Of a DNA stretch of 64,000 nt, positions 13,770-32,633 are shown in pieces (positions within the stretch are counted from its first letter, which is position 1; each line of letters starts with the position of its first letter). The stretch is from Saccharopolyspora gregorii (GTDB taxonomy: Bacteria > Actinomycetota > Actinomycetes > Mycobacteriales > Pseudonocardiaceae): NCBI RefSeq assembly GCF_024734405.1, contig NZ_CP059556.1, positions 1,798,001-1,862,000 on the forward strand, read 5' to 3'. A model generated the notes under the pieces. The model did not search any database. It was given only the letters and a program-made list of their open reading frames with translations, and was not told the DNA's origin. The position numbers were made by a program, and so were the translations under genes.

Positions 13770-13921
13770 CGGATCGGAGCGCCGGTGGACGGCAACCGGC
13801 GGCCGTTCCGCCGAATGCCACTCGAAGCAACACGAAACAACATCCCGCCATTGTGCCGCGCTGATCGTCGCCGGTAGCCTCGCCGGGCGGGGACTTCACG
13901 GGGGCGGGAAGCGAGACGCGG

Positions 13922-14683
13922 ATGTACGCCGAGGAACGGCACTGGGCGATCTTGGAGCTGGCGCGGAAGGAAGGCCGGGTCGACGTGGCGGCGCTCGCAT
14001 CGCGCTTCGACATGACCACGGAGACCGTGCGCCGCGACCTGACCGTGCTGGAGCGCCGCGGCGTGCTGCGCAGGGTGCACGGTGGCGCGATCCCCGTGGA
14101 GCGGCTGGGATTCGAGCCGAACGTGCCCGCCAGGGACTCGGTGATGACCGCCGAGAAGAACCGCATCGCGAAAGCGGCGCTGGAACTGGTGCCGGACGAG
14201 GGCGCGATCCTGCTCGACGCCGGCACCACGGTCGCGCGGATGGCGAACATCCTCCCCGTCGACCGGGAACTGACCGTGGTCACGCACTCGCCGACGACGG
14301 CGCTCACCCTCTCCGGCCGCGGCAACATCACCCTGATGCTGGTCGGCGGCAGGCTGCGCGGCCGCACGCTGGCGGCGGTGGACGGCTGGGCGCTGCACGC
14401 GCTCGGCGACATCTACGTGGACGTGGCGTTCATGGCGACCAACGGGCTGTCCCTGGAACGCGGCCTCACGACACCGGATTCGGCCGAGTCGATGGTGAAG
14501 CGGGCGGCGATCTCGGCGGCGCGGCGCACCATCGTGCTCGCCGACCACACCAAGATCGGCAACGACCACTTCGCGCGGTTCGGCGACCTCGCCGACGTGG
14601 ACACGCTGATCACCGACGACGGCATCGACGAGCAGGTGGCGGAGGAACTCCGGCGCGCGGGGCCACGCGTCGAGGCGGTCTGA
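13922..14683 (+). CDS. DeoR/GlpR-family sugar-phosphate-responsive regulator
   Basis: A 253-residue repressor-type regulator. The N-terminal DeoR helix-turn-helix spans about residues 5-57 ('RVDVAALASRFDMTTETVRRD', 'LRRVHGGAI'), and the C-terminal sugar-phosphate sensor fold spans 75-250 ('LLDAGTTVARMA', 'VVTHSPTTAL', 'VGGRLRGRTLAAV', 'MATNGLSLERGL', 'LADHTKIG'). Such proteins usually sit directly before PTS and PfkB kinase genes and sense fructose-1-phosphate or a related sugar phosphate. Here the only PTS-PfkB operon starts 10 kb downstream, beyond four antibiotic-type regulators on the same strand. I infer that it is the original local regulator of that operon, later separated by insertion. 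A GC-rich hairpin (14691-14711) follows the stop. Confidence 0.9.
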   Translation: MYAEERHWAILELARKEGRVDVAALASRFDMTTETVRRDLTVLERRGVLRRVHGGAIPVERLGFEPNVPARDSVMTAEKNRIAKAALELVPDEGAILLDAGTTVARMANILPVDRELTVVTHSPTTALTLSGRGNITLMLVGGRLRGRTLAAVDGWALHALGDIYVDVAFMATNGLSLERGLTTPDSAESMVKRAAISAARRTIVLADHTKIGNDHFARFGDLADVDTLITDDGIDEQVAEELRRAGPRVEAV

Positions 14684-14690
14684 CCGCCCG

Positions 14691-14711
14691 CCGCGCGAAC
14701 CCGCCGCGCGG
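14691..14711 (+). terminator. Hairpin after the DeoR gene
   Basis: CCGCGCG (14691-14697) pairs with CGCGCGG (14705-14711) around a seven-base loop, eight bases after the DeoR stop and 55 bases before the first LAL gene. It may separate the two transcription units. Confidence 0.45.
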
Positions 14712-14765
14712 CACCGCAGCATTCGGCATTCCGTACGCCTGGGGGCGGACCGGGAGGAACCCCGC

Positions 14766-17576
14766 ATGGTGGCTGACCAAGGCGTGCAGAGCGGCCCGCC
14801 GGGCCGGCTGGTCGGACGCGAGCCCGAGCTCGCGCGGATCGCCGACGCCGCCCGGGCCGCGCGGGGCGGTTCGGGCCGGGCCGTCCTGCTGCGCGGGCCG
14901 GCGGGCATCGGCAAGACCGAGGTGTTGTTCAGCGCCCTGGCCGAACTCGACGGCCGCGCCACCCGCGTCCTGTTCGCGCACTGCCCGGAGACCGGCACCG
15001 GTGCCTACGCGGCCGTGCGCGCGCTGCTGGCGCCGGTGCACGACCCGGAGCCGACCGGCAGCGCCCGCCTCGCACTGCCCGCCCTCTCCCCGGAGCGCGC
15101 CGGGGACGGCGCCGCGACCGGCACCTACGCCGTGCTGCACGGGCTGCACTGGCTGGTCGCCGACCTCACCGGCGACGGGCCGCTGGTGCTGGCCGTCGAC
15201 GACGTGCAGTGGTGCGACGAGAACTCCCTGCGGTTCCTGGCCTTCCTGCTGCGCCGCGCCGAGGAACTGCCGCTGCTGGTGCTGCTGGCCCAGCGCACCG
15301 GGGGGACCGCGCCGGGCGAGGCGCTGGGGGAGATCGCGGCGATGCCGTGGTGCGACACCGTGGACCTGCCCGCGCTGGGCGAGGGGCCGGTCGCCGAACT
15401 CCTCGACGCCGAGCTGCCCGCGCCGCCCGGCCCGGAGTTGGCCGCTCGTTGCGCCCAGGTCACCGGGGGCAACCCGTTCCTGCTCGGCAGGGTGCTGCGC
15501 CGGTTGCGGGAGGCGCCCGCGGAGGACGCCGCGGAACGGCTGGACGAGCTGCACCGCACCGTCGTGCTGCGTTCGCTGCTGGACCGGTTGTCGGAGCGCG
15601 GCGTGGCGGTGGCCCGCGCGGTCGCGACCCTGCCCGGCGAGCGGCTGGAGCTGATCGCGGCGCTGGCCGGGATCCACCAGCGGATGGCCGTCGTCGCGCT
15701 GCGCGAACTGCGGGATCGGGACCTGGTGGGGACCGGCGGCGGCATCGGGTTCGTGCACGACTTCGTCCGGCAGGCGGTGCTGGACCGCACCCCGCCTGCC
15801 GAGCTGGAACGGCTCCGGGAACGGGCCGCGATGCTGCTCAACGACGCGGGCCGGCCGGCGGAGGAGGTCGCGGTGCTGCTGCTGCAGCTGCCGGGCGCGC
15901 CGCAGCCCTGGATGGCGGGGGTGCTGCTCGACGCGGCCACCCGGGCCGAGCAGCGCGGCGCGCCCGGCACGGCGGCCCGCTGCCTGGACCGGGTGCTGGT
16001 GGTGCAGGGCACCGACGTGGCGGTGCTCGCGCAGGCCGCGCGGGTGGCGGACCCGGTGACGGGGTTGCGCTACCTGGAGCGGGCGCTGGAGCTCGTCGAC
16101 GATCCGCGGGCGCGGCTCCCGATCGCGGTGCAGTACGCGGTGGCGTCGCTGTCGGCGCAGAACTCGACGCGCGCCTTCGAGGTGGTCTCGGCCGCGCTGG
16201 ACGAGCTGGACGCCGCGCTGGGGCCGGGCCTCGGGGACGCGGACCGGACGTTGCGCACGCTGGCCGAATCGATGCTGCTGGTCTCCGGCATGGACGAGAA
16301 GTCGACGCTGCCGCGGGTGGGGGCCCGGTTCCGCGACGTGGCGCCGCCCGCGGGCGACACCGCGGAGGAGCGCCAGCTGCTGGGGATGCTGGCTTCGCTG
16401 GGCGCGCTGCTGAACCGGCCCGCCGCGGAGGTCGCCGCGCAGGCCCGGTCGGTGCTGCGGATCAACGACGTGGAGGGCGACGGCTTCGCGCTGCTGGGGG
16501 CGTCGCTGCCGCTGTACCTGGCCGACGACAACGAGTCGGCGCTGGCGGCGCTGGACCTGCTGGTCGGGCACGCCCAGCGCTCCGGGCAGGCGTGGGCGTA
16601 CTGCCTGGCCAGCAGCACCCGCGCGCTGGTGCACCACTGGACGGGCGACCTGGTGGAGGCGCTGGCGGACGCGCAGAGCTGCTACGACGTGCTGGAGCAG
16701 GAGTCCTGGACCGGCTCGATGACGATGCCGCAGATCGCGCTGGCGACCTCGCTGACCAGCCAGGGCGAGCCGGAGCGGGCGACGGCGGTGCTGGCGGAGA
16801 TCTCCCGCGCCCGCTTCGAGGACTTCGCCTTGGAGTACCACCAGTTCCTGATGGCCCGGGCCCGCGCGCTGGAGGCCGCGGGAGATCCGGATGGCGCGCT
16901 GGAGCAGCTGTTCCGCTGCGCGCAGAGCCTGCGGGAGGCGGGCATCGACAACCCGGTGTTCGCGCCGTGGTGGTTCGACGCGGCCTGCCTGCTCGGCGAC
17001 CTGGGCCGGGCGGAGGAGGGGGCGCGCGCCGCCGAGCACGGCGCGGTGCTGGCGCGGAAGTGGGGAACGCGGCGGGCGCGGGGCATGGCGCTGGCGGCGC
17101 GCGGGGCGGTGGCGGCGGGCCGCGCGGCGGTGCCGGTGCTGTCGGAGGCGGTGCGGGTGCTGTCGGCTTCGCCGGCGAAGCGGGAGCAGGCGAAGGCGGA
17201 GCACCTGCTGGGGCGGGCCCTGCTGCGCGCGGGCGAGCCGGAGGGCGCGCGCGAGCACCTGCGGTCGGCGCTGGACCTGTCGGTGCTGCACCGCGATCAC
17301 CGGCAGGTGTCGGCGTCCTCGGCGGCGCTGCTGGAGGCGGGCGGCCGGTTGCGGCACGGGACGGACTCGCCGGTGCACACCTTGAGCGGCAGCGAGCGGC
17401 GGGTGGCGGTCCGGGCGGCGGCGGGGGCGACGAACCGGGAGATCGCGGAGTCGTTGTTCCTCACGGTCCGGACGGTGGAGCTGCACCTGACCAGCGCCTA
17501 CCGGAAGCTCGGCGTGCGGGGGCGCGCGGAGCTCCCGGCGGCGCTGGCGGTGGACCCGGAGGCCCCGGTTCCGTGA
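14766..17576 (+). CDS. LAL-type LuxR-family regulator 1 (ATP-binding, NysR/AmphR-like)
   Basis: Large ATP-binding LuxR regulator of 936 residues, the class that activates polyene clusters. N-terminal AAA-type ATPase: Walker A 'GPAGIGKT' at residues 44-51 and Walker B 'LVLAVDD' from about 140. A long helical repeat region follows, then a C-terminal LuxR helix-turn-helix from about residue 876 ('NREIAESLFLTVRTVELHL', 'AYRKLGV'). This is the only one of the four LAL proteins here with an intact Walker A lysine. The ATG at 14766 has GGAGG nine bases upstream. It is the first of three LAL genes in tandem, an order recalling nysRI-nysRII-nysRIII; one-to-one orthology cannot be settled by eye. A short hairpin follows its stop. 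Confidence 0.92.
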   Translation: MVADQGVQSGPPGRLVGREPELARIADAARAARGGSGRAVLLRGPAGIGKTEVLFSALAELDGRATRVLFAHCPETGTGAYAAVRALLAPVHDPEPTGSARLALPALSPERAGDGAATGTYAVLHGLHWLVADLTGDGPLVLAVDDVQWCDENSLRFLAFLLRRAEELPLLVLLAQRTGGTAPGEALGEIAAMPWCDTVDLPALGEGPVAELLDAELPAPPGPELAARCAQVTGGNPFLLGRVLRRLREAPAEDAAERLDELHRTVVLRSLLDRLSERGVAVARAVATLPGERLELIAALAGIHQRMAVVALRELRDRDLVGTGGGIGFVHDFVRQAVLDRTPPAELERLRERAAMLLNDAGRPAEEVAVLLLQLPGAPQPWMAGVLLDAATRAEQRGAPGTAARCLDRVLVVQGTDVAVLAQAARVADPVTGLRYLERALELVDDPRARLPIAVQYAVASLSAQNSTRAFEVVSAALDELDAALGPGLGDADRTLRTLAESMLLVSGMDEKSTLPRVGARFRDVAPPAGDTAEERQLLGMLASLGALLNRPAAEVAAQARSVLRINDVEGDGFALLGASLPLYLADDNESALAALDLLVGHAQRSGQAWAYCLASSTRALVHHWTGDLVEALADAQSCYDVLEQESWTGSMTMPQIALATSLTSQGEPERATAVLAEISRARFEDFALEYHQFLMARARALEAAGDPDGALEQLFRCAQSLREAGIDNPVFAPWWFDAACLLGDLGRAEEGARAAEHGAVLARKWGTRRARGMALAARGAVAAGRAAVPVLSEAVRVLSASPAKREQAKAEHLLGRALLRAGEPEGAREHLRSALDLSVLHRDHRQVSASSAALLEAGGRLRHGTDSPVHTLSGSERRVAVRAAAGATNREIAESLFLTVRTVELHLTSAYRKLGVRGRAELPAALAVDPEAPVP

Positions 17577-17583
17577 GTTCCCG

Positions 17584-17598
17584 TCCCGCTCCGCGGGA
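17584..17598 (+). terminator. Short hairpin after LAL regulator 1
   Basis: TCCCGC, a TCC loop and GCGGGA form a six-pair stem seven bases after the stop. It is weak alone, but it precedes a 180-base AT-richer stretch (17640-17780) that looks like a promoter region for the next gene. Confidence 0.4.
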
Positions 17599-17639
17599 GG
17601 CGCGGGCCGGGCTCTTTCCCTGAATCGATCGTTCCCGGC

Positions 17640-17778
17640 ACGATCGGCCCGATCATGTCGTCTCGTGTGGGATTGTTTTGCTTTGCTTGCGAGAGAATGC
17701 GGTTGCTCACACCTTTGGGTGATACGCTCAGTGTTGTTCCGGCCCTAGCTTCATCTTTTCGAGTTAAGGGAGGTTGGT
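17640..17778 (+). promoter_or_regulatory. AT-richer leader region before LAL regulator 2
   Basis: This stretch is clearly poorer in G and C than the coding DNA around it and has no coding bias. It contains candidate elements such as TTGCTC near 17704, but no well-spaced -35/-10 pair that I would defend. It ends in a near-perfect Shine-Dalgarno, AAGGGAGGT, just before the small reading frame at 17779. It is most likely where transcription of LAL regulators 2 and 3 starts. Confidence 0.4.
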
Positions 17779-17991
17779 ATGGGCGATCTCCCTCCTGGCG
17801 CGGTGAACGCGGCACTGCGCCGCAGGCCTGCGCGGATTCGGAAAGGGGCTGCGCCGCCAGTGATGATGACGGTGCGTGATGGCGAACGGGTCGACCGGCA
17901 CCTGCGCTTTGGTCCGAATACTTTTCATGTTCGCCGGATTCCCGTCCCGGATCCGGTGAACGGTGCGCTCGCACCATTCGGAGCGTGCTGA
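17779..17991 (+). CDS. Small leader reading frame (70 aa) coupled to LAL regulator 2, hypothetical
   Basis: ATG at 17779 follows AAGGGAGGT at a five-base spacing, one of the best ribosome-binding sites in the window. The frame runs 70 codons and its TGA overlaps the ATG of LAL regulator 2 (TGATG), the geometry of translational coupling. The product is basic, with no recognised domain or membrane segment. Against a real gene, its third codon positions are only about two-thirds G or C, far below its neighbours, as expected for intergenic DNA or a recent gene. It could be a leader peptide controlling LAL 2 translation, or chance. Confidence 0.35.
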   Translation: MGDLPPGAVNAALRRRPARIRKGAAPPVMMTVRDGERVDRHLRFGPNTFHVRRIPVPDPVNGALAPFGAC

Positions 17992-20564
17992 TGGTCGCGG
18001 TCCACGACGCCCCCGGCCGAAGTTCCGCGGCGCCGCGACAGCACGAGCTGGTCGGGCGCGACGACGAGTTGCGGGTGGTCGGCGGACTCGTCGCCGACCT
18101 CGCCCGCGGCCGCTCCGGTCTGCTCACCATCAACGGCGCCCCCGGTTCCGGCCGCAGCGCCCTGCTGGAAGCGATGCTCGCCGACGCGCGCGCCGCCGGG
18201 CTCAACACGGCCGCCGCGCAGAGCTCACCGCTGGAGACCGACGTCCCCTACAGCACCGCCGCCCAGCAGATCGCCCTGCTCTGCCCACCCGAGCAGCTCA
18301 CCCGGATCAGCTCCGCGTGGGCCGAGGGCGCCGCCACCAACGCACCGATCCCGTTCCTGCGCAAGCAGATCCTGGACGTGGCGGCGCGGCGGCCGCTGCT
18401 GCTCGCCGTGGACGACCACCAGTGGATCGACCCGTGGTCGCTGGCCTGGTGCCACGCCATGCTGCGGCACCTGGACCGGGCGCCGGTCCTGATGGTGCGG
18501 ACCGTGCGCGACACCGCCCCCGAGACCGACGGCGGCGCCCGCTGGGACGAGACGGTGCCGGTGCCGCCGCGACGGGTCCGGCTCGGCCCGCTCGCCGTCC
18601 CGGACGTCGCCGAACTGCTGTCCCGGTACGGCCCCGCCGACCGGGACTTCGCCGCCGCCGCCACGACCGAGACCTCGGGCAACCCGGCGGTGCTGCGGCT
18701 CGTGCTGGAGGAGTTCCACCGCGCGGGGCTCGGCTTCGAATCCCGCCACGTCCCCCGGCTGCGGGTGCACGCCGCCGACGCCGTCGCGCACCTGGTGGGC
18801 CGAACGCTGCGCGGACTGCCCGCCGACCACGTGGAGCTGCTGCGCGCGATCACCCTCTGCGGTGGGGAGTTCGACTTCGAGCTGGCCTGCGCGCTCGCCG
18901 GTCTGCACGGCCACGCCGCGGCCCGGGCCCGCACCTCGCTGCGGCACCTCGGGCTCATCTGCGAGTCCACAGAGGACGGCGTGCCGCGCGCGTCCAGCCC
19001 CGCCGTGGCCACCGGGGTGCTGGCCGAGATGGAACCGGCCGAACGGGAGGAGCTGCACGGCCGCGCCGCCGAGATCGGCCACCGCGCCGCCGTCGAACCC
19101 TGCGCGCTGGCCGACATGCTGCTCAACGCACCGCAGATGCGCCGCCGCTGGGTGGTGGAAACGCTCGTCGAAGCCGCCGAGCGGCACCGCCAGGAGGGCA
19201 GGCACGAGCGCGCCACCGAACTGCTGCGCCGCGCCCTGCGCGAACCCGTGCCCGGCGACTGCAGGCAGCGGCTGCTGACCCGGCTCGCCGCGATCGAAGT
19301 GGCGCACGCCCCCGCCGCCAGCGACGGGCGGTTGCGCCAGGTGCTCACCGACGCGGTCGGCACCGGCGACACGGCGCTGCTCGTGCAGGCCGCGGACCTG
19401 CTCGTCGCCCGCGGGGACTCGGAGACCGGGCGCCGCGAGCTCGCGACCGTCTGCGCCCGGGTGCGCAGTCCCGCGCTGGACGCGCTCGGCCTGCTGGCCG
19501 ACGAACTGTGCGCGCCCGCCCCGGAACCGCTCGCCGTCCGGCTGCCGCCGGTGCCGGAGGAAGCCGCCGACCCGGCGCAGGCGGGTCTGCTGGCGTGGCG
19601 CTGCGCCCGGCTCGGCCGCCGCCCCGACCTGGTGCGCACCCTCGCGCGGGAGGCGCTCGCCGACCGCGACCCCGAACTGCCGCTGGCCACCCGGATCGCG
19701 GCCTGCCACGCGCTGGCCTGCCGGGACGACGCGGCCGAGGCCGCGGCCGGGCTCACCGCCGTGATCTTCGACGCGGGCCGCCGCGGGGCGCGGGCCGCCG
19801 CCGCGTACGCGCTGGTGCAGCGGGCCGTGCTCGCCGCCAAGGACGAACGCTGCCCGGCGGCGGGCGCCGACCTGGCCGCCGCCGTGCGGCAGCTGCCGCT
19901 GCACTGCTGGCACCCGGCGCTGCTGCCGCACTACCTGGCCGCGCGGATCGGTGCGCTGCTGCGGCTGGAGGACGTAGCCGGCGCCGAGCGGGTGGCCGCC
20001 GCGGAGCTGCCGCTGGGTGCGGAGCGCGGCATGGGCTTCGCCTACCTGCTGCACGCCCGCGGTGAACTGCGCCTCGCGACGGGAGATCCGGCGACCGCGC
20101 TCGGCTACTTCCAGGAGTGCGGCCGGATGCTGCGCGCCAAGGAGTGGCTGAACCCGGCGGTGCTGTCCTGGCGGATGCCCGCCGCGATCGCGCAGGGCCG
20201 CCTCGGCGCGGCCCGCGCGGCGACCCGGCTCATCGGGGAGGAACTGGAGCTGGCCGAGCGCTGGGGCATGCCGGGGCTGCTGGAACCGGTGCACCGCAAG
20301 GCGTTGTCCGCGCTGGCGCTGGCCGGTTCGGGCCCGGCCGGCCCGGGAGCCGCGGGCATCCCGCGGATGGGGGCGGCGCTGCCCGCCGCGCTCTCGGTGC
20401 CCGAGCGCCGGGCCGCGAGCCTCGCCGCGCGGGGTCTGTCCAACAAGGACATCGCGCAGGAACTGGGCGTGACGGTGCGGACCGTCGAGCTCCGGCTGAC
20501 CAAGTCCTACCGCAAGCTCGGCATCGAAGGCCGCGCGCAGCTCCCCCCAGACCTGGCCGAGTGA
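17991..20564 (+). CDS. LAL-type LuxR-family regulator 2 (degenerate Walker A)
   Basis: 857-residue LAL regulator. The N-terminal ATPase region has 'GAPGSGRS' at residues 49-56, with Arg in place of the Walker A lysine, and 'LLLAVDDHQW' as Walker B. A helical repeat middle follows, then a C-terminal LuxR helix-turn-helix ('NKDIAQELGVTVRTVELRL', 'SYRKLGIEGRAQL'). I chose ATG at 17991, not GTG at 17985, because GGAG lies seven bases before the ATG and would touch the GTG. Its start overlaps the stop of the 70-codon leader frame. LAL regulator 3 begins ten bases after its stop, so both are surely cotranscribed. Likely role: activator of the polyene genes, by family and position. Confidence 0.9.
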   Translation: MVAVHDAPGRSSAAPRQHELVGRDDELRVVGGLVADLARGRSGLLTINGAPGSGRSALLEAMLADARAAGLNTAAAQSSPLETDVPYSTAAQQIALLCPPEQLTRISSAWAEGAATNAPIPFLRKQILDVAARRPLLLAVDDHQWIDPWSLAWCHAMLRHLDRAPVLMVRTVRDTAPETDGGARWDETVPVPPRRVRLGPLAVPDVAELLSRYGPADRDFAAAATTETSGNPAVLRLVLEEFHRAGLGFESRHVPRLRVHAADAVAHLVGRTLRGLPADHVELLRAITLCGGEFDFELACALAGLHGHAAARARTSLRHLGLICESTEDGVPRASSPAVATGVLAEMEPAEREELHGRAAEIGHRAAVEPCALADMLLNAPQMRRRWVVETLVEAAERHRQEGRHERATELLRRALREPVPGDCRQRLLTRLAAIEVAHAPAASDGRLRQVLTDAVGTGDTALLVQAADLLVARGDSETGRRELATVCARVRSPALDALGLLADELCAPAPEPLAVRLPPVPEEAADPAQAGLLAWRCARLGRRPDLVRTLAREALADRDPELPLATRIAACHALACRDDAAEAAAGLTAVIFDAGRRGARAAAAYALVQRAVLAAKDERCPAAGADLAAAVRQLPLHCWHPALLPHYLAARIGALLRLEDVAGAERVAAAELPLGAERGMGFAYLLHARGELRLATGDPATALGYFQECGRMLRAKEWLNPAVLSWRMPAAIAQGRLGAARAATRLIGEELELAERWGMPGLLEPVHRKALSALALAGSGPAGPGAAGIPRMGAALPAALSVPERRAASLAARGLSNKDIAQELGVTVRTVELRLTKSYRKLGIEGRAQLPPDLAE

Positions 20565-20574
20565 GGCCCGCCGG

Positions 20575-23403
20575 ATGCTGGTCGAACGCGAGTGGGAGCT
20601 CGCCGTGCTGGAGTCCGCCGTCCGCCAGGTCGGCCGCGGGACCGGTTCGCTCGTGCTCATCAGCGGGATGCCCGGCAGCGGCCGCAGCGCGCTGCTGAGC
20701 AGGTTGCGCGAGCTCGCCACCGCGAGCGGGGCCCGGGTGCTCGGCGCGGGCGGCGCGGCCAGCGAGCGCTCGTTCCGGTTCGGGCTCGTGCGGCGGCTGC
20801 TGCACGACCTCACCGCTCCGGCCCCGGGACGGCCGCCCGCCGAGGCGCTGCCGCCCGCCGACGAGGCGCACGTCGACGACCCGGGCGCGGTTCCGGTCGG
20901 CGTGCTGCACGCGCTGCACGCCCTGCTGGTCGGGGCGAGCGCGCGGTGCCCGCTGGTGCTGGCCGTGGACGACCTTTGGTGGGCCGACGAGGCCTCGTTG
21001 CGCTGCCTGGCCTACCTCATCGGCCGGTTGCGGGGGATGCGGGTGCTGGTCGCGGTGGTGCTGGACCCGGACTCGGGCCGGGATCGGGGCGCGCTGGTCC
21101 GCGAGATCACCGCCGCCGCCGCGCACCGGGTGCGGCCCGGCCGGTTGTCGGTGGCCGCGACCGCGGAACTCGTCCGCGACCGGTTGTGCGCCGAGCCGGG
21201 CCCGGACGCCGACCCGGACGGGTTCGCCGCGGTGTGCCACGAGCTGACCGGCGGGCACCCGGGCGACCTGGTGAGCCTGCTGGACCAGGCCGCCGAGCAG
21301 GGGCTGCGCCCGGTGCCCGCGTCGCTGCCGGTGCTGCGCGCGCTCGCCGAGGGCGACCGCAGGCGGCGGCTGGTGCGGGCCCTGTCCGGCGGGGAGTTCG
21401 CCGCCGACGTCGCCCGCGCCGTCGTCGTCCTCGGCGAGCACGCGGACCCCACGCTGGTGCAGCGGCTGTCCGGGCTGACGCCGAGCCGCTACGAGCGGGC
21501 GCTGCGGGCGCTGGAACCGTGGTTCCGGGTCCACCCGGACCGGATCGAGGTGGCGGTGCCCGGCGAACGCGGCGAGCTGGCCGCGGAACTGCTGGTGGAC
21601 GACGTGATCGCCGCGGTCGAGGAGTCCACCGCCGAGCACGACAGCACCCGGCTGCACCTGCGGGCGGCGGCCTTGCTGCACGGCCACGGCTATCCCCCGG
21701 AACCGGTGGGCGACCAGTTGCTGCTGGTGAACTCGACGCTGTCCAGCTGGGGCGTGCAGCGGTTGCGGGAAGCGGCCCACGCCGTGCTGCCGCGGTCCCC
21801 GGAGGTCGCGGCCCGCTACCTGCGGCGCGCCCTGCTGGACCTGGAGTCCGGCGGGATGGGCCGGGCGCGGTTGCTCGCCGAGCTCGGCTCGGTGGAGCTG
21901 GCGTTCGACCTGCCCGCCGCGGTGCGCCACATCGGCCAGTCGGTGCCGCAGCTGCGCGAGCCGCGCGACCGCGCCCGCGTGCTGGGGCGGCTGCCGCTGA
22001 CCGTGACCGGCGCGGGCCCGCGGGTGGCCGAGCTGATCCGCGAGGTGGCCGCCGAGCACGGTCCCGCCGACGAGCTGGAGGGCGCGGACCGGGAGCTGGC
22101 GCTGCGGCTGGAGGCGCGGACCCGCTACCTGGCGCTGGAGGACCCGGCGGCGCACGCCGCGGTCCCGGGGCGGATGGCCGAGCTCGACGCTCGCCAGTGC
22201 GCGCCCGGCCCCGCCGAGCGGGAACTGCGCGTGGTGCTGCTGGCCTCGATGGCGCTGACCGGCACGCCGCGGGCGTCGGAGGTCGCGTCGATGGCGCGGG
22301 AGCTGCTGGCGCAGGAACCGGCGAACGTCACCTCGGAGACGCATTCGGTGCTGCGCTACCTGCCGTCGATCCTGCTGGCGGCCGGCGCCCCGGAAGGCCT
22401 GGACTCGTGGCTGGCGCTGGCGGCCGACCACGCGCGCAGGCAGGGCGCCACCGCGGCGGAGGCGCTGGTCGCCGCGCAGCACAGCCTGGTGCACCTGGAC
22501 TCCGGCCAGCTCGTGCAGGCCCGGCGCAGCGCGACGGCCGCCCTGGACCTGGTCGAGCCGGACACGCCGGAGTCGATGGCCGCGCCGGTGTTCGCGATGG
22601 GCGCGGTGGCCCGCAGGCTGCGGGACCGGGAACTGGCCGAGCGGGTGCTGCTGCTGCCGCATTCGCCGGACGACCTGCAGGTGGTGGCGCTGCGGCGGTT
22701 GGTGCAGAGCAACCTCGCGATGCAGGACGGCGATCCGGTGACGGCGCTGACGCACCTGCTGGACTGCGGCAGGCGCCTGGAGCAGGCCGGCTGGTTCGGC
22801 CCGGCGGCCTGCTCGTGGCGGCCCACCGCGGCGCTGCTGCGGCACCGGCTCGGCGACGTCCGGGCGGCGGTCGAGCTCGCGGAGGAGGAGTACCAGCGCG
22901 CCCGCGACTGGGGCGCCCCGACGCCGCTGGGCCGGGCGCTGCGGGTGCGCGCGGTGGTCACCGGGGGCGGTCGCCGGGTGGAGCTGCTGCGGGAAGCGGT
23001 GCAGGTGCTGCGGCCCGCGGCGGACCGGCTGGAGCTGGCGGGCGCGCTGGCCGCGCTCGGCGAGGCGTTGCGGGACCGGGCTCCGGCGGAGGCGGAGCTG
23101 GTGCTGGCCGAGAGCGCCCAGGTCGCGGCCCGCAGCGGCGCACCGCCGCACGCGACCGGCGCCCCGGGGCCCGGAGGCGGGCGCGGGAACGGCCCGTCGG
23201 AACCGGCCGCGGTGCTGACCCGGGCGGAAGAAGCGGTCGCGGAATCGGCGGCGCTGGGCCGCACCAACCAGGAGATCGCCGACGAGCTCCGGGTGAGCAG
23301 GCGAGCGGTCGAGAAGCACCTCACCGCGGCCTACCGAAAATTGGGGATCGACGGCAGGGCGGATCTCGCGAATTCACTTCTCCCGCGCGGGGCGGGCGGC
23401 TGA
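20575..23403 (+). CDS. LAL-type LuxR-family regulator 3 (degenerate Walker A)
   Basis: 942-residue LAL regulator. The ATPase motif 'GMPGSGRS' is at residues 31-38 (Arg for Lys) and Walker B is 'LVLAVDDLWW'. The middle is a long Ala/Leu-rich helical repeat region. The C-terminal LuxR helix-turn-helix shows 'NQEIADELRVSRRAVEKHL' and 'AYRKLGIDGRADL'. The ATG at 20575 uses a GAGG that overlaps the LAL 2 stop codon (spacing about eight), so the two genes are translationally linked. It lacks the N-terminal extension present in LAL 1 and 2. After its stop comes a 415-base regulatory gap before the PAS-LuxR gene. Confidence 0.9.
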   Translation: MLVEREWELAVLESAVRQVGRGTGSLVLISGMPGSGRSALLSRLRELATASGARVLGAGGAASERSFRFGLVRRLLHDLTAPAPGRPPAEALPPADEAHVDDPGAVPVGVLHALHALLVGASARCPLVLAVDDLWWADEASLRCLAYLIGRLRGMRVLVAVVLDPDSGRDRGALVREITAAAAHRVRPGRLSVAATAELVRDRLCAEPGPDADPDGFAAVCHELTGGHPGDLVSLLDQAAEQGLRPVPASLPVLRALAEGDRRRRLVRALSGGEFAADVARAVVVLGEHADPTLVQRLSGLTPSRYERALRALEPWFRVHPDRIEVAVPGERGELAAELLVDDVIAAVEESTAEHDSTRLHLRAAALLHGHGYPPEPVGDQLLLVNSTLSSWGVQRLREAAHAVLPRSPEVAARYLRRALLDLESGGMGRARLLAELGSVELAFDLPAAVRHIGQSVPQLREPRDRARVLGRLPLTVTGAGPRVAELIREVAAEHGPADELEGADRELALRLEARTRYLALEDPAAHAAVPGRMAELDARQCAPGPAERELRVVLLASMALTGTPRASEVASMARELLAQEPANVTSETHSVLRYLPSILLAAGAPEGLDSWLALAADHARRQGATAAEALVAAQHSLVHLDSGQLVQARRSATAALDLVEPDTPESMAAPVFAMGAVARRLRDRELAERVLLLPHSPDDLQVVALRRLVQSNLAMQDGDPVTALTHLLDCGRRLEQAGWFGPAACSWRPTAALLRHRLGDVRAAVELAEEEYQRARDWGAPTPLGRALRVRAVVTGGGRRVELLREAVQVLRPAADRLELAGALAALGEALRDRAPAEAELVLAESAQVAARSGAPPHATGAPGPGGGRGNGPSEPAAVLTRAEEAVAESAALGRTNQEIADELRVSRRAVEKHLTAAYRKLGIDGRADLANSLLPRGAGG

Positions 23404-23581
23404 ACGCGATTCGGTACCGCGCCGCGTTCGCGCAGGGTGATCACGGCGGTCACGCTTGGTCGCGGACCGCTGCCTGCGGAAGGGCGGAATGTGGTGGGGG
23501 ATTCACGTGATGTTGGTTCGTGCCCGTCCCTGTGGTGGCGGGTGGGGGCCTGAGCCGTACCCGAACCCACCCCCGCGATGT

Positions 23582-23659
23582 GGTTCGGTGCGGTCGTTCG
23601 GTCGTGAAATACCTGGTAGATCGGCACCGAACCGAATCGGGCCGAACCGAACCGAACCA
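23582..23659. repeat. Cluster of ACCGAAC/GTTCGGT repeats before the PAS-LuxR gene
   Basis: Two GTTCGGT copies (23583-23589 and 23596-23602) face a run of inverse copies: ACCGAACCGAA at 23626-23636 and three further CCGAA units at 23642-23656. The phased direct and inverted copies sit about 160-240 bases upstream of the PAS-LuxR start in an otherwise non-coding 415-base gap. This is the pattern of a multi-site operator, possibly for a LAL protein. The binding protein is unknown. Confidence 0.55.
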
Positions 23660-23818
23660 GCGGGCGGCTTGACCGCAGGCTTAAGGACGGCGCTGGCCCG
23701 CTGTTGACTTGGTTGGTTTTGAATCCATAGCCTTGTGGTGTCGTTGAATTCCGGTAATGCCTCCAACCGATGCCGGATCTGCGTTTCTCGCGAGCCAGAG
23801 AGGAATGGTCGAATTCTG

Positions 23819-24505
23819 ATGACATCCAGCGGCACGATGCGAGCGCGACCCACGCCTGCCGGGGCGTCCGAAGAATCCGGTGAAGATTATCGGGACATTT
23901 ACAGATCGTTGTTCGAGCAGTCCGGGATGTGCATGGCGAACCTCGATTCGAGCATGCGCGTGCTGGAGGCGAACAAGTACTTCTTCAAGCAGTTCGGGCG
24001 CGGTGCCGCCGACGTGCGGGGGCGCAGCTTCTACGACTTCCTGCACCCCAGCGTGCGCGGGAAGTTCCAGTACCAGTTCGCCCGCCTCACCGAGGGCCGC
24101 AACCCGCGGTTCGTGGAGCACGCGGTCGCCGTCGGCGCGAAGGAAGCGCTGTTCGGCGGGGAGCTGACCGGCATCGCGGTGCCCGGCCGCTCCGGTCGCG
24201 TGGAGGGCGTCATGGTCGTGCTGCAGCCGGACGAGGGACAGCGGGCCGCGATGGTCGGCGGCAAGGAGAAGCTGCTCAGCGAGGTCGACGCCCGGATCCT
24301 GGAGGGCGTCGCGGCCGGGGAGTCCACCGTGCAGCTGGCCGCGAAGCTCTACCTCAGCCGGGGCGGCGTCGAGTACCACGTGACGACGCTGCTGCGGAAG
24401 CTCAAGGTCACCAACCGCCCGGCGCTGGTCTCGAAGGGCTACTCGATGGGAATCCTCGGCGTCGGCCAGTGGCCGCCGCGGGTGCTGCCCGAGTACGTGA
24501 AGTGA
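23819..24505 (+). CDS. nysRIV: PAS-LuxR regulator (PimM/NysRIV/AmphRIV type)
   Basis: 228 residues in this reading. The N-terminal PAS domain (about 25-130) has the hallmark 'GEDYRDIYRSLFEQSGMCMA', 'SMRVLEANKYFFKQFGR' and 'GRSFYDFLHPSVRGKF' of the polyene PAS-LuxR family. The C-terminal LuxR helix-turn-helix (about 150-210) has 'STVQLAAKLYLSRGGVEYHV' and 'LLRKLKVTNRPALVSKGY'. PimM, the type member, binds CTVGGGAWWTCCCBAG and activates polyketide genes; two such sites are in this window. The start is uncertain: ATG 23819 is favoured, ATG 23837 is possible, and the open frame reaches GTG 23735 through non-coding-like sequence. No TTA codon. A small hairpin (24507-24522) follows the stop. Confidence 0.94.
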   Translation: MTSSGTMRARPTPAGASEESGEDYRDIYRSLFEQSGMCMANLDSSMRVLEANKYFFKQFGRGAADVRGRSFYDFLHPSVRGKFQYQFARLTEGRNPRFVEHAVAVGAKEALFGGELTGIAVPGRSGRVEGVMVVLQPDEGQRAAMVGGKEKLLSEVDARILEGVAAGESTVQLAAKLYLSRGGVEYHVTTLLRKLKVTNRPALVSKGYSMGILGVGQWPPRVLPEYVK

Positions 24506-24506
24506 G

Positions 24507-24522
24507 CGGCGGCCCTCCGCCG
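24507..24522 (+). terminator. Hairpin after the PAS-LuxR gene
   Basis: CGGCGG, a four-base loop and CCGCCG form a six-pair stem starting directly after the stop codon. It probably separates the regulator from the PTS operon; the stem is short and has no T-run. Confidence 0.4.
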
Positions 24523-24721
24523 GGGTGCCGGCCCGGTGGTGGTCCGAGCTCGTTCCCGTCGATCGGCCCGCATAGCGGAGATCTTCCGGGAAAACCTTGA
24601 ACTCGCCGTGCGATGGTTGCCACCGGGGCGACCTCCGTGCAAGATCGATTTTTCTCCGGTGCCGGGCTCCGCGCGGAGCCGCCGACCCGGCGACCACCTG
24701 GACCAGGGGAGGGCTGTGCGC

Positions 24722-25663
24722 GTGATCGTCACCGTCACGGCGAACCCCAGCCTCGACCGCACCGTGCAGGTGCGCAAACTGGTGCGCGGCGGCCTGAACC
24801 GCGCCTCCTCGATCCGCGTCGACCCGGGCGGCAAGGGCATCAACGTGGCCCGCGCTCTCGCCCAGCACGGCGTCGACGTCCGCGCGGTCGTGGCGGCGGG
24901 CGGCATCGAGGGCCAGCAGCTCGTGGCGTTGCTGGCCGGCCTGAGCATCGACGTGCTGCGGGTGCCCGCGGTGGGCCCGGTCCGCATCAACATGAGCGTC
25001 GTCGAACCCGACGCGACCGTCACCAAGTTCAACGAGCCGGGGGCGCTGCTGGACGCGGGCGACGCCCGCGCCCTGTGCGAGGCGGTGCTGCGCAGCGCGG
25101 ACGGCGCGAACTGGGTGGTGATCGCGGGCAGCCTGCCGCCGGGGGTGAGCAGCGCCTACTACGCGGGGCTGATCCGGATGATCGGCTCGCTGGGCGTCCC
25201 GGTGGTGGTGGACACGAGCGGGCCCGCGCTGCACGAGGCCGTGCAGGCCCGGCCGACGTTGGTGAAGCCCAATCTCCGGGAACTGGAGGAGACGGTAGGT
25301 CACTCGATTACAACGATCGGTGGCGTCGTCGATGCCGCCGACGAGATCCTCGAACTCGGGGCGGACACCGTGCTGGCCAGCCTCGGGGCCGATGGGGCCC
25401 TGCTGCGCGGGCACGACGGCTGCGGTTACGCCGAGGCGCCGGTGACCGCGCAGAACGCTGTCGGCGCGGGGGACGCTTTACTCGCCGGATATCTTTCCGA
25501 AGGCTGCGGAGGTCTGCCCGCCCTGGTCACCGCGGTGGCCTGGGGCGCGGCAGCGGCCTCGCTGCCGGGTAGCGCCATGCCACAACCGCACGACCTGCGC
25601 CCGGACTTGGTGCGCGTCGAGTCCCGGGTGCCCTGGGACCGGCGGCTGCACCGGGACCCCTGA
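24722..25663 (+). CDS. PfkB-family sugar-phosphate kinase (1-phosphofructokinase or tagatose-6-phosphate kinase type)
   Basis: 313-residue kinase of the FruK/LacC branch. It starts 'VTANPSLDRTV', has the PfkB substrate/ATP signature 'DPGGKGINVARAL' near residue 35, and the C-terminal 'NAVGAGDALLAGY' with the catalytic Asp. FruK makes fructose-1,6-bisphosphate from fructose-1-phosphate; LacC acts on tagatose-6-phosphate. The neighbours (mannitol-type EIIC and a zinc polyol dehydrogenase) leave both possible. GTG 24722 is chosen because GGAGG at 24708-24712 is nine bases away; GTG 24716 is only three away. The gene has a leucine TTA codon at 25478-25480 and local patches of AT-ending codons (25291-25330, 25470-25500), unlike its neighbours, so bldA-type control is possible. 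Confidence 0.88.
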   Translation: MIVTVTANPSLDRTVQVRKLVRGGLNRASSIRVDPGGKGINVARALAQHGVDVRAVVAAGGIEGQQLVALLAGLSIDVLRVPAVGPVRINMSVVEPDATVTKFNEPGALLDAGDARALCEAVLRSADGANWVVIAGSLPPGVSSAYYAGLIRMIGSLGVPVVVDTSGPALHEAVQARPTLVKPNLRELEETVGHSITTIGGVVDAADEILELGADTVLASLGADGALLRGHDGCGYAEAPVTAQNAVGAGDALLAGYLSEGCGGLPALVTAVAWGAAAASLPGSAMPQPHDLRPDLVRVESRVPWDRRLHRDP

Positions 25664-25725
25664 CGCGGGGAGGCGGTCGGCGAGGCAGAGGGACAACGGC
25701 GTCGGCGAGGTACGGAGTGACAACC

Positions 25726-26817
25726 ATGTCAGGGACGGCCACGGAGGAATCGAGTTCTCGAGCACAGGCGCAGCGCGCCCGCGTCGTGGTGCAGCGGTTC
25801 GGCGGGCAGCTGGCCGGCATGGTCATGCCCAACATCGGCGCGTTCATCGCCTGGGGCCTGATCAGCGCGCTGTTCATCCCGGAGGGCTGGTGGCCCAACG
25901 CCCAGCTGGCGCAGCTGAAAGAACCGATGATCACGCTGCTGCTGCCGGTGCTGATCGGCTACACCGGCGGCAGGCAGGTGCACGGGCAGCGCGGCGCGGT
26001 CGTCGGCGCGGTCGCCACCATCGGCATCGCGATCGGGGCCGAGGTCCCGATGTTCCTGGGCGCGATGATCGTCGGCCCGCTCGCGGGCTGGGTGCTGAGA
26101 CGGTTCGACCGCTCGGTGGGCAAACGGGTGCCTCCGGCGTTCAAGATGCTGGTGGACAACTTCGCGGCCGGGATCATCGGCGGGCTCTTCGCCATCGCCG
26201 GGCTGCTGGCGATCGGTCCCGCCATCGAGAGCGTGACCATCGCGCTCGGCCACGGCGTGCAGGCGCTGCTGGACCTGCACCTGCTGCCGCTGGTGGCGAT
26301 CATCGTGGAACCGGCGAAGGTGCTGTTCCTCAACAACGCCGTCAACCACGGCGTGCTCGGGCCGCTGGGCGTGTCCGAGTCGCTGGACCACGGCAAGGCC
26401 ATCGAGTTCCTGGTCGAGCCGAACCCGGGACCGGGCTTCGGGGTGCTGCTGGCGATCACCGTGTTCGGGCCGCCCGCGATGCGCGCGACCGCGCCCGGCG
26501 CGCTGGTCATCCAGTTCCTCGGCGGCATCCACGAGATCTACTTCCCGTACGTGCTGGCCGCGCCGCGGCTGCTGCTGGCGACGATCTCCGGCAGCGCGGC
26601 GGGGCTGTTCGTCTTCAGCATCACCGGTGCGGGCCTGGTCGCCACGCCGTCGCCGGGCAGCGTGGTCGCGCTGCTGGCGGTGACCCCGAAGGGCGGCTAC
26701 GTCGGCGTGATCGCCGGGATCGCCGCGTCGGCGGTGGTGGCGTTCGTGGTCGCCTCGCTGGTGCTGAAGCTGTGGCGACGACCCGACGAGGTCGAGACCG
26801 GTGGAGCGGTCCGATGA
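25726..26817 (+). CDS. mtlA: PTS mannitol/polyol-type permease, EIIC
   Basis: 363-residue membrane permease of the phosphotransferase system. It shows 'VQRFGGQLAGMVMPNIGAFI' at the N-terminus, about eight hydrophobic segments, and the mannitol EIIC hallmarks 'FLNNAVNHGVLGPLG' and 'GGIHEIYFPYVL'. It imports and phosphorylates a hexitol together with EIIB and EIIA. In E. coli MtlA these are one polypeptide; here they are three genes. I chose ATG 25726, eight bases after GGAG, over GTG 25717, which overlaps that GGAG. The stop overlaps the EIIB start (ATGA). The sugar is inferred as mannitol or a similar polyol. General PTS proteins EI and HPr are not in the window. Confidence 0.92.
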   Translation: MSGTATEESSSRAQAQRARVVVQRFGGQLAGMVMPNIGAFIAWGLISALFIPEGWWPNAQLAQLKEPMITLLLPVLIGYTGGRQVHGQRGAVVGAVATIGIAIGAEVPMFLGAMIVGPLAGWVLRRFDRSVGKRVPPAFKMLVDNFAAGIIGGLFAIAGLLAIGPAIESVTIALGHGVQALLDLHLLPLVAIIVEPAKVLFLNNAVNHGVLGPLGVSESLDHGKAIEFLVEPNPGPGFGVLLAITVFGPPAMRATAPGALVIQFLGGIHEIYFPYVLAAPRLLLATISGSAAGLFVFSITGAGLVATPSPGSVVALLAVTPKGGYVGVIAGIAASAVVAFVVASLVLKLWRRPDEVETGGAVR

Positions 26818-27272
26818 GCCGCGGGTCGGCGGCCTCCCGCTGGTGGCGCGCGATCGGCTTCGCCCAGCGCCGGGTGCTCGGATCGCACGACGAACTGCGG
26901 GAGGAACCGGTGCCGCCGAGCGAGGTCGAGAGCGCGCGGCAGGCAGGAGAGGAGCGCTCGATGGGCACGATCAACGGGTCGGCGGTGCGCAAGGTCGTCA
27001 TCGCCTGCGACGCGGGCATGGGCAGCAGCGCCATGGTCGCCGCCCAGCTGGCGGGCAGGCTCAAGCCGTACGACGTGAAGGTCTCGCACGCCTCGGTCAC
27101 CGAGATCCCGCCGGACGCGGATCTGGTGCTGTGCCAGGAAACCCTGCTGGAGCGGGCGCGGCGGGAGGACACCGGTTCGGCGGTGATCCTCGGTTTCCGC
27201 AGCTTCCTCGGCGACCCGGTGTTCGACGAGGTCGAGCAGGCCGTCCGGGAAGGTGAACCCCTTGGTGGTTGA
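26814..27272 (+). CDS. PTS polyol-type EIIB subunit with N-terminal extension
   Basis: Cytoplasmic phosphocarrier that hands phosphate from EIIA to the sugar. From about residue 57 it has 'KVVIACDAGMGSSAMVA', the mannitol-type EIIB P-loop with its phosphorylated cysteine, and then a complete domain of about 95 residues. The first 49 residues are an Arg/Glu-rich extension not usual for a free EIIB. The ATGA overlap with EIIC and strong coding bias from 26814 favour the long form. An internal ATG at 26961, with AGGAGAGGAG six bases upstream, would give a standard 103-residue EIIB, so two products are possible. Confidence 0.85.
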   Translation: MSRGSAASRWWRAIGFAQRRVLGSHDELREEPVPPSEVESARQAGEERSMGTINGSAVRKVVIACDAGMGSSAMVAAQLAGRLKPYDVKVSHASVTEIPPDADLVLCQETLLERARREDTGSAVILGFRSFLGDPVFDEVEQAVREGEPLGG

Positions 27273-27747
27273 GGCGGGCCCGCCCCGGCCGCTGGCGGTG
27301 CGGCTCGGCCGCACCGCCGCGGGATTCGCGGACGCCATCGACCAGTGCGGCCGCCTGCTGGTGGAGACCGGCGCGGTCGAGGAACCCTACGTCGCCGCGA
27401 TGCACGAGCGGGAGCGGTCGCTGACGACCCACCTCGGCGAAGGCGTCGCGATCCCGCACGGCACCACCGAATCCCGCCGCTTCGTGCGGCGCAGCGCCCT
27501 GGTGGTGGTGCAGTTCCCCGGCGGGGTGCGGTGGAGCGACGGCGGCGAGGTGAGCCTGTGCGTGGCGATCGCCGCGGGCGCCCGGCGCGCCGACGGTTCG
27601 CCGGATGCGGCGGGCGCGCAGCACTTGGGCGTGCTGTCGGCCCTGGCCACGGTCCTGATGGATCCGGTGCGGGCGCGCGAGCTGCGCGAAGCACCGGACG
27701 AGGCGACGGTCGACCGGCTGTTGCGGTCCGTTGAGGAGGACAGGTGA
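27253..27747 (+). CDS. PTS mannitol/fructose-type EIIA subunit
   Basis: 164-residue cytoplasmic phosphoryl carrier of the mannitol/fructose EIIA fold. Seen: 'ERERSLTTHLGEGVAIPHGTTE', split around the active-site histidine in IPHGT (about residue 69), then 'LVVVQFPGGVRW' and 'HLGVLSALATVLMDP'. It takes phosphate from HPr and passes it to the EIIB encoded just before. Its start overlaps the EIIB gene by 20 bases if GTG 27253 is used; GTG 27265, overlapping the EIIB stop region, is the alternative, and neither has an ideal ribosome-binding site. Its stop overlaps the start of the dehydrogenase gene (GTGA). Confidence 0.87.
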   Translation: MNPLVVEAGPPRPLAVRLGRTAAGFADAIDQCGRLLVETGAVEEPYVAAMHERERSLTTHLGEGVAIPHGTTESRRFVRRSALVVVQFPGGVRWSDGGEVSLCVAIAAGARRADGSPDAAGAQHLGVLSALATVLMDPVRARELREAPDEATVDRLLRSVEEDR

Positions 27748-28784
27748 AGGTCGCACGTTTCTACGCCCCGGGTGACATCCGCATCGAGCAGGCCCCGGAA
27801 CCGGAACCCGGCCCGGGCGAACTGAAGCTGCGGGTCCGCAACTGCTCCACCTGCGGAACCGATCTGAAGATCATGCGGCACGGGCACCACCACATCGACC
27901 CGCCACGGGTCATCGGCCACGAGATCGCCGGGGAGGTGGTCGGCATCGGCGACGGCGCCAGCGGTTTCGCCGAGGGCGACCGGGTGCAGGTGATCGCGGC
28001 GATCCCCTGCGGCGAGTGCGGCTACTGCGAGCGCGGCAGGCAGACGGTGTGCCCGAACCAGCGCTCGATGGGCTACCACTTCGACGGTGGTTTCGCCGAA
28101 TTCCTCACCGTCCCCGAGCAGGTGCTGCGGGTCGACGGGGTGAACCTGCTGCCCGGCGGGGTCGACTTCGCGGCCGCGTCGGTCGCCGAACCGCTCGCCT
28201 GCGTCCTCAACGGCCAGGAGCTCGCGCGGGTCGGCCCGGGGGACGTGGTCGTGGTCGTCGGCTCCGGCCCGATCGGCTGCCTGCACACCCGGCTGGCGCG
28301 GGCCCGCGGCGCGGCCGCGGTGTACCTGGTGGAGCTCAACGCCGCCCGGCTGGAGCAGGCGGCCGAGCTGGTGGGCCCGGATGCCGCGATCCTCGCCTCC
28401 GCCACCGATCCGGTCGCGGAGGTGCTGCGCCGCACCGGCGGTGTCGGCGCCGACGTGGTGATCACCGCGGCCGCTTCCGGCGAAGCGCAGGAGCAGGCGC
28501 TGCGGATGGCCGCGCGCGGCGGCCGGATCAGTTTTTTCGGTGGTTTGCCCAAGGATTCGCCGATCATCGACTGCGATTCGAACGCGGTGCACTACCGTGA
28601 GTTGACCATCGTCGGTGCCAACGGCTCCACCCCGGAGCACAACCGGCGGGCGCTGCGGCTGATCGCCTCCGGTGACGTCCCGGTGCACGACCTGATCACC
28701 CACCGGTTGCCGCTGGACGGGGTGCTGGAAGCGATCCGCACGGTCAGCACGGGCGACGCGATCAAGGTGACCATCGAGCAGTGA
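27744..28784 (+). CDS. Zinc-dependent MDR alcohol dehydrogenase (polyol or polyol-phosphate type)
   Basis: 346-residue medium-chain dehydrogenase of the sorbitol/threonine/galactitol-phosphate dehydrogenase group. The catalytic zinc site shows Cys in 'STCGTDLKI' and 'GHEIAGEV'; the structural zinc loop is 'CGECGYC' with a fourth Cys eight residues on. NAD(P) binding is at 'VVVVGSGPIGCLH'. As the last gene of the PTS operon it probably oxidises the imported polyol phosphate to a ketose phosphate for the PfkB kinase. It replaces the long-chain mannitol-1-phosphate dehydrogenase (MtlD) usual in mannitol operons. GTG 27744 has GAGGAGG four to five bases upstream and overlaps the EIIA stop. The exact substrate is not determined. 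Confidence 0.88.
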   Translation: MKVARFYAPGDIRIEQAPEPEPGPGELKLRVRNCSTCGTDLKIMRHGHHHIDPPRVIGHEIAGEVVGIGDGASGFAEGDRVQVIAAIPCGECGYCERGRQTVCPNQRSMGYHFDGGFAEFLTVPEQVLRVDGVNLLPGGVDFAAASVAEPLACVLNGQELARVGPGDVVVVVGSGPIGCLHTRLARARGAAAVYLVELNAARLEQAAELVGPDAAILASATDPVAEVLRRTGGVGADVVITAAASGEAQEQALRMAARGGRISFFGGLPKDSPIIDCDSNAVHYRELTIVGANGSTPEHNRRALRLIASGDVPVHDLITHRLPLDGVLEAIRTVSTGDAIKVTIEQ

Positions 28785-32523: not shown

Positions 32524-32633
32524 GGCTCCTCCTCCGAGCGCTGGACCTCCGCGGCGGGCGGCGCCCGCGCGGCCAGTACAGCACCGCGCGGTGCGGAGAA
32601 CCCCTAGTCCGGATTCCGCGCCACGACGGAGAA

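Follow-up and report, generated by a model that had tools for sequence, protein, structure and literature searches.

Gene order of the locus

Why a complete sugar-uptake operon lies within the regulators of an antifungal cluster was the question raised by a locus of Saccharopolyspora gregorii. The genome consists of one contig of 6.34 Mb, and its bases 1798001–1862000, a stretch of 64,000 nucleotides, were analyzed and are called the window. The locus is best explained as a polyene macrolide cluster whose regulator block has absorbed a complete mannitol-type phosphotransferase system (PTS) operon together with a DeoR-family regulator of the type that usually controls such operons. The reading preferred here, at a probability of about 0.55, is that DeoR ties a polyol signal to the LAL and PAS-LuxR activators of the polyene cluster; binding, ligand, and expression are all predicted. 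Computation established how the genes are ordered, that the arrangement recurs in three genera with PTS genes that do not form one clade, that DeoR is split from the PfkB kinase gene in genus g22, and that DeoR-operator-like repeats precede the activators.

Gene identities were obtained from Pfam and NCBIfam profile matches. The block begins with the DeoR-family polyol/sugar regulator (13922..14683, + strand; PF00455 at 170.7 bits, PF08220), in which the helix-turn-helix (HTH) and C-terminal sensor domains are both present, and which is 94–97% identical to its counterparts in three congeners and 64–75% identical to PTS-adjacent DeoRs of other genera. After a gap of 82 bp, three LAL regulators with AAA_16 and GerE domains follow on the + strand (14766..17576, 17985..20564, and 20575..23403), and then a PAS-LuxR regulator of the PimM/NysRIV type (23735..24505, +, start possibly at 23819; PAS_4 and GerE). 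The operon, also on the + strand, encodes a PfkB-family hexose-phosphate kinase of the 1-phosphofructokinase subfamily (24716..25663; TIGR03168, 290.9 bits), enzyme IIC (EIIC) of the mannitol (MtlA) type (25717..26817; PF02378), EIIB (26814..27272; PF02302) with the active-site motif CDAGMGSS in its translation, EIIA (27253..27747; PF00359) with the active-site histidine motif IPHGT, and a zinc-dependent polyol-type dehydrogenase (27744..28784; ADH_N and ADH_zinc_N). A fourth LAL regulator (28846..31506, +; AAA_16 and GerE) starts 61 bp after the operon. In the three congeners, the corresponding gaps are about 80–90 bp before LAL1 and about 75 bp before LAL4.

The order proposed in the initial annotation, with DeoR cut off from the PTS-PfkB operon by three LALs and the PAS-LuxR regulator, a fourth LAL after the operon, and all genes on the + strand, was confirmed by these profiles. 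Its statement that the operon is the only one of its kind also held, EIIC being the sole match in the window genome at E 1e-30. The PfkB start that it gave, 24722, is plausible, yet 24716 is equally so on inspection of the start codons.

Distribution of the regulator–PTS pairing

The pairing was surveyed in 297 genomes of the family, the Pseudonocardiaceae, with E 1e-30 for EIIC and E 1e-25 for relatives of PAS-LuxR. EIIC was found in 46 genomes, a PAS-LuxR relative in 90, and both in 28; in 10 of these 28, the two genes lie 0.5–1.3 kb apart, the co-occurrence count and distances being worked by hand from the two match tables. These ten close pairings span three genera: six Saccharopolyspora genomes, G170 (genus g16), and G143, G239, and G267 (g22). 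The regulators and the PTS are thus associated more than by chance.

All six Saccharopolyspora genomes keep the regulators with EIIC-EIIB-EIIA, and four also keep DeoR, PfkB, and the dehydrogenase. Gene order in G120 and G101 is identical to that of the window. G137 has the same block, a 137-aa P450-like piece being left after LAL4, and no polyketide synthase (PKS) match was found in the downstream stretch examined, PKS genes elsewhere in that genome not having been searched for. In the case of G079 and G046, PAS-LuxR, EIIC, EIIB, EIIA, and four LALs are kept, and no PKS, DeoR, PfkB, or dehydrogenase gene was found at the locus (PKS elsewhere not searched for). The regulators and EIIC-EIIB-EIIA are therefore retained in three of the six genomes where no PKS follows at this locus. 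A second, partial block is present in G079 (contig C1, about 5975100–5975942; L265/L266), where a C-terminal PAS-LuxR piece of 108 aa, 92% identical to the window protein, is directly followed by an intact-looking EIIB open reading frame (ORF) of 145 aa. The DNA of this piece is 88% identical to the window and 82% to G079's own block.

Outside Saccharopolyspora, the arrangement differs in detail. The g22 order is PKS, DeoR (−), thioesterase (−), LALs, PAS-LuxR, and PfkB through dehydrogenase, and in G170 the LALs, PAS-LuxR, and a second DeoR lie between PfkB and EIIC. DeoR was also found in LAL/PAS-LuxR blocks without a PTS, namely, in G132, G094, G115, and G253 (contig C9), the order in G132_C9 being PKS, DeoR, thioesterase, LAL1–3, and PAS-LuxR. 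Three of these genomes, G132, G094, and G115, have in addition a PTS at a different site, accompanied by a second DeoR; DeoR is thus able to move together with the regulators. The initial annotation had named a different DeoR adjoining a homologous PTS elsewhere as evidence against a displaced DeoR; this arrangement exists in these three genomes, but the window genome carries a single EIIC of this type. Class-wide, 8 of 394 genomes had a PAS-LuxR match at E 1e-45. Six of the eight are outside the family, all in genus g71, and no DeoR or PTS match was found within 20 kb of PAS-LuxR in the four of these six that were mapped.

Putative DeoR operators before the activators

An 18-bp operator motif of tandem 10-bp repeats, with the consensus AAACCCACATGAACCCAT, was learned from 14 free PTS loci, using the intergenic DNA on their DeoR side. 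The 450 bp upstream of regulators were scanned, p values were taken from dinucleotide shuffles, and the cut-off was 0.01. The training set of the 14-locus motif includes the separate PTS loci of the tested genomes G132, G094, and G115; the held-out motif was built from nine loci, all from genomes outside the test. A first version had been trained with the cluster-bearing G170 and G253, and the tests use the later motifs.

In the 12 blocks with DeoR, 9 of 51 regulator genes had a predicted site at p 0.01, compared with 2 of 43 in the 12 blocks without DeoR. The former count leaves out 2 of 11 matches, those of LAL4 in the window and in G137, which lie inside the dehydrogenase coding sequence; the two sites without DeoR are those of G079 and G046, whose four congeners have DeoR. 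Other genes gave 4 matches in 62, all in gaps shared with DeoR or a LAL. Outside Saccharopolyspora, a site was found in 6 of 8 blocks with DeoR and in 0 of 10 without. The best score per block before LAL or PAS-LuxR genes was 14.3–22.8 in the former (n = 8) and 4.2–10.3 in the latter (n = 10; Mann–Whitney p 2.2e-4), and with the held-out motif 13.8–21.7 and 4.7–9.1, respectively. The observed difference of 10.6 bits was reached by none of 200 column-shuffled motifs.

In the window, a putative DeoR operator with tandem 10-bp repeats lies upstream of DeoR itself (13816..13843, best 18-mer at 13824). It scored 11.4 bits, with shuffle p values of 0.035, 0.027, and 0.013, and the same promoter scored 16.6–21.1 bits in three congeners (p 0.003–0.005). 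The held-out motif gave 16.2 bits in the window and 19.1–24.8 bits in the congeners, no p being computed. Before PfkB, no DeoR operator was found in the window (3.1 bits, p 0.16) or in the three congeners. The window DeoR thus departs from the layout expected of a PTS regulator, being about 10 kb from the PTS and having no predicted operator before PfkB. Describing DeoR only as the displaced partner of the PTS is accordingly too simple, given the DeoR blocks without a PTS, the putative operators before LAL and PAS-LuxR genes, and their lack before PfkB in Saccharopolyspora. The regulator seems to have been taken up into the circuit that controls the polyene genes.

Separation of DeoR from the PTS operon

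The premise of the initial annotation that DeoR, PfkB, and PTS genes normally adjoin was mostly correct. Of the EIIC loci that do not belong to polyene blocks, 19 were mapped over 15 kb or more, covering a part of the 46 EIIC genomes, and 15 of them have DeoR no farther than 300 bp from PfkB. The four exceptions are G041 (1.1 kb), G031, G200, and G253 contig C32. In five short loci (L027, L033, L035, L037, and L038), no recognisable DeoR or PfkB was found within 1.5 kb of EIIC. On another contig of G253 (C12; L282, 2404–5773), DeoR adjoins PfkB-EIIA-dehydrogenase without EIIC and EIIB, and PfkB, EIIC, and EIIB are found on a different contig.

Genus g22 holds both states. In G231, which gave no PAS-LuxR match at E 1e-25, DeoR (28121–28978, −) is beside PfkB (from 28924, +). 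In G267, G143, and G239, the two genes are 12.6–12.9 kb apart, with the thioesterase, LALs, and PAS-LuxR between them. DeoR of G267 is 89% and its PfkB 82% identical to that of G231, and in G267 the pair is 12.6 kb apart. In the PTS tree, the g22 cluster PTS and the free PTS found in the congener G231 are sisters (100/100), and in the DeoR tree the g22 DeoR is sister to the PTS DeoR of that congener (98/98). A single clade for all eight cluster PTS sets was rejected (approximately unbiased test, p 3e-5), the group having been delimited by gene linkage but put to the test once the tree was drawn. A separate clade of polyene DeoRs was not found, the cluster DeoRs being scattered among PTS DeoRs. 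From the adjacency in G231 as against the split in G267, together with both trees, it was concluded that in g22 a PTS locus already in place came to have the polyene regulators within it. Between the g22 clusters and G231, only DeoR, the operon, the stretch after the operon (which in G239 holds an enzyme I gene), and a single small gene are in common, scattered weak matches aside; flanks beyond the PTS unit are not common to G231 and G267. The enzyme I gene of G239 (L065 12994–14664; PF05524, PF00391, and PF02896) follows the cluster PTS and makes that PTS nearly self-sufficient.

The insertion of regulators into a sugar-uptake locus, as first proposed for the window, was therefore shown in g22 by the contrast between G231 and its congeners, but for Saccharopolyspora no unsplit relative was found. 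The suggested comparison with relatives lacking the cluster was informative in g22 through G231; all six Saccharopolyspora genomes carry the block, and no empty site was found for this genus; among the 297 genomes, close orthologs of the HTH gene that flanks the block upstream are confined to it. Insertion in Saccharopolyspora is plausible.

A single origin was weighed against these data. According to this alternative, an early polyene cluster of the Pseudonocardiaceae already held DeoR and the PTS, and most lineages lost one or the other. The DeoR-LALs-PAS-LuxR-PfkB order common to Saccharopolyspora and g22 fits such an ancestor, as do the PTS-less cluster of G132_C9 and the PTS trees, which follow the genera and would also suit vertical descent. 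However, many parallel losses would be required, and G231 would have to lose about 12.6 kb and regain the DeoR–PfkB spacing found in 15 of the 19 mapped free loci. The deep branches of the PTS, DeoR, and PAS-LuxR trees lack resolution. Overall, ancestral linkage was considered unlikely.

Alternatively, the PTS locus may be an integration hot spot at which the two systems were paired without function. Beyond the PTS unit, the cluster loci of g22 and g16 do have other flanks than the free loci compared, which indicates a mobile region. Nevertheless, chance neighborhood is highly improbable in view of at least three switches between linked and unlinked along the PTS tree, the retention of the pairing in three genomes without a PKS following, the DeoR-like operators before the cluster activators, and low dN/dS (ratio of nonsynonymous to synonymous substitution rates). 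The latter was 0.09–0.20 for the PTS genes and 0.27–0.38 for LAL4 among the window, G120, and G101.

Probable expression and substrate of the PTS

PAS-LuxR boxes were scored with a 16-mer that we take to be the consensus. A box with a perfect core, GGGAATTCCC at 33910 (33907..33922), lies before the PKS genes with one mismatch to the 16-mer; none of 300 gap shuffles was as good, and the 10-mer by itself should turn up about twice in 64 kb when up to one mismatch is allowed. The LAL set, the PAS-LuxR regulator, and a PAS-LuxR box at the PKS promoter are accordingly all present in the window. A related box consensus is given in a section of PMC9774167.

In front of PfkB, the box of G120 has a perfect core and one mismatch (0 of 300 shuffles), and those of G101 and G137 have three mismatches (p 0.027). 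The boxes before EIIC in G079 and G046 have three mismatches (p 0.010 and 0.023), and those before the PTS operon in g22 four to five (p 0.04–0.19). In the window, the box before PfkB has six mismatches, and PAS-LuxR control of its PTS operon is not claimed. In the window lineage, the PTS promoter has no remaining DeoR site, one precedes DeoR-LAL1, and the PTS operon is placed between PAS-LuxR and LAL4, 61 bp upstream of the latter; the operon is thus probably expressed with the cluster. The PAS-LuxR box backs this co-expression in G120 and weakly in G101 and G137, but not in the window.

In the case of the substrate, mannitol or a similar polyol is the best guess because EIIC scored 451.7 bits against the mannitol model TIGR00851, the cut-off of which is 468.4. 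Among the matches listed, EIIC was 54–60% identical to proteins annotated as MtlA, CmtA, or mannitol IICBA over about 82% of its length, and one listed match reached 52% over 88% of the protein. Genes for enzyme I and HPr are located elsewhere in the genome; since these are available and the active-site motifs of EIIB and EIIA are kept, the PTS could work.

The genes that follow the operon bear on a metabolic alternative. A type II thioesterase lies after LAL4 (31762..32898, −, true start inside the ORF; PF00975, residues 147–362). It is followed by a GDP-mannose 4,6-dehydratase of the NysDIII type (32653..33867, +, true start probably downstream of 32653; PF16363, and TIGR01472 at 396.7 bits against a cut-off of 415). 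Polyene-type PKS genes, long ORFs that match PKS-like genes of other clusters and were not family-scanned, occupy 33967..64000 (+) and run past the window end. They adjoin the regulators, and ORFs of 3471 and 6608 aa lie within the window, with more beyond (domains not scanned). Further downstream are a DegT aminotransferase (genome 1875763–1876758, by family match) and P450-like and glycosyltransferase-like proteins, these two being judged from sequence alone. With this glycosyltransferase, the mycosamine set of dehydratase, aminotransferase, and glycosyltransferase is complete. On the other side of the block, minus-strand ribonucleotide reductase genes (window 450–10117) lie upstream in all six Saccharopolyspora maps, and further upstream a siderophore pair is present in the window and in four of the five other maps, but not in G120's stretch.

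The main rival to a signal is thus precursor supply, in which the PTS and dehydrogenase would turn mannitol into fructose-6-phosphate, which would feed GDP-mannose and the mycosamine sugar of the polyene as a purely metabolic link. The dehydratase gene comes third downstream of the operon, the aminotransferase and glycosyltransferase-like genes are in the cluster, and mannitol feeding was used to raise meijiemycin and thought to boost GDP-mannose, according to a part of PMC8944477. On the contrary, PfkB would draw the sugar into glycolysis, G079 and G046 keep EIIC-EIIB-EIIA with the regulators at a locus without PKS, PfkB, or dehydrogenase, and the 60 kb mapped in g22 showed no GDP-mannose dehydratase. 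Precursor supply also leaves the DeoR sites before regulators in PTS-less blocks unexplained, and it was judged rather improbable.

Proposed role of DeoR

A signaling role of DeoR would proceed as follows. DeoR may act as a repressor, responsive to the phosphate of a sugar or polyol, that holds down the LAL and PAS-LuxR activators. A polyol such as mannitol, imported and phosphorylated by the PTS, would release DeoR, and the polyene would then be made when the polyol is present, for example, from a nearby fungus. A wider version is tentative: a fungus-sensing circuit in which mannitol or a similar fungal polyol would enter through the cluster PTS, its phosphate would lift DeoR off the promoters of the LAL and PAS-LuxR genes, and the polyene would be turned on beside prey whose leaked polyols the operon then consumes. 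Such a circuit would have been built at least three times around resident PTS loci in the Pseudonocardiaceae.

Several observations weigh against a signal through DeoR. Two of the eight DeoR-bearing blocks outside Saccharopolyspora missed p 0.01 (G143, 0.017; G170, 0.013), and base composition accounts for a part of the score difference, column-shuffled motifs still differing by 4.4 of the 10.6 bits on average. The blocks are related and are not independent data points. In the stretch examined, PKS genes were seen for no more than 5 of the 8 blocks that have DeoR and 6 of the 10 that lack it, so that the polyene-cluster label for the whole set depends on the regulators. The LAL2 and PAS-LuxR promoters had no significant site in the three Saccharopolyspora congeners, LAL2 of the window giving p 0.02–0.04, and G079 and G046 keep a site upstream of PAS-LuxR (p 0.003) though DeoR was lost. 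The PAS-LuxR box upstream of PfkB has a perfect core only in G120, is weak in G101 and G137, and is absent in the window. In comparisons with G079, dN/dS rose to 0.34–0.39 for EIIC and EIIA (0.52 for LAL4). Finally, a DeoR protein of another cluster, WysR3, was reported in PMC6207912 to affect morphology, not antibiotic production.

Comparison with known systems and significance

LAL and PAS-LuxR sets are listed for nystatin, amphotericin, NPP, and others (NysRI–RIV, AmphRI–RIV, and NppRI–RVI) in the review PMC9774167, in which phosphotransferase is not mentioned. Like the window, the nystatin, amphotericin, and NPP clusters have at least three LALs and one PAS-LuxR regulator, long PKS genes, a GDP-mannose dehydratase, and a DegT aminotransferase, as well as glycosyltransferase- and P450-like genes, those of the window being recognized by their sequence only. 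Unlike them, the window has DeoR and a PTS operon within the regulator block and a fourth LAL after it. DeoR-type genes may also lie near the nystatin regulators. Compared with the free mannitol-type PTS loci of Pseudonocardiaceae and Nonomuraea, the genes, their order, and the active-site motifs are the same (EIIC 57–72% and dehydrogenase 70–78% identical in the loci mapped), but in the window three LALs and PAS-LuxR separate DeoR from the operon by about 10 kb, and no DeoR operator was found before PfkB.

The wuyiencin cluster resembles the window in holding a DeoR gene, WysR3/wysRIII, alongside LAL and PAS-LuxR regulators, as described in parts of PMC9774167 and PMC6207912. No PTS is noted for that cluster in these parts. 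PMC8944477 covers polyene clusters of Saccharopolyspora as well as the feeding of mannitol for a polyene sugar derived from GDP-mannose; neither its main text nor PMC8621364, as far as available, mentions a PTS, phosphotransferase, or DeoR. The initial annotation knew of no polyene cluster with an embedded PTS operon, and none was found in the open-access literature, judged by titles and abstract openings. What is new here is the PTS and DeoR variant of a known polyene cluster and the predicted DeoR sites before its activators.

Many polyene clusters are silent in culture, and to our knowledge, the environmental cue that switches on antifungal polyene clusters is largely open. The DeoR/PTS pair in the regulator block, together with the predicted DeoR sites, offers a concrete and cheap test of such a cue. 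Moreover, if one sugar system has been joined more than once to one kind of antibiotic cluster, primary and secondary metabolism would here have been wired together convergently, which is rare.

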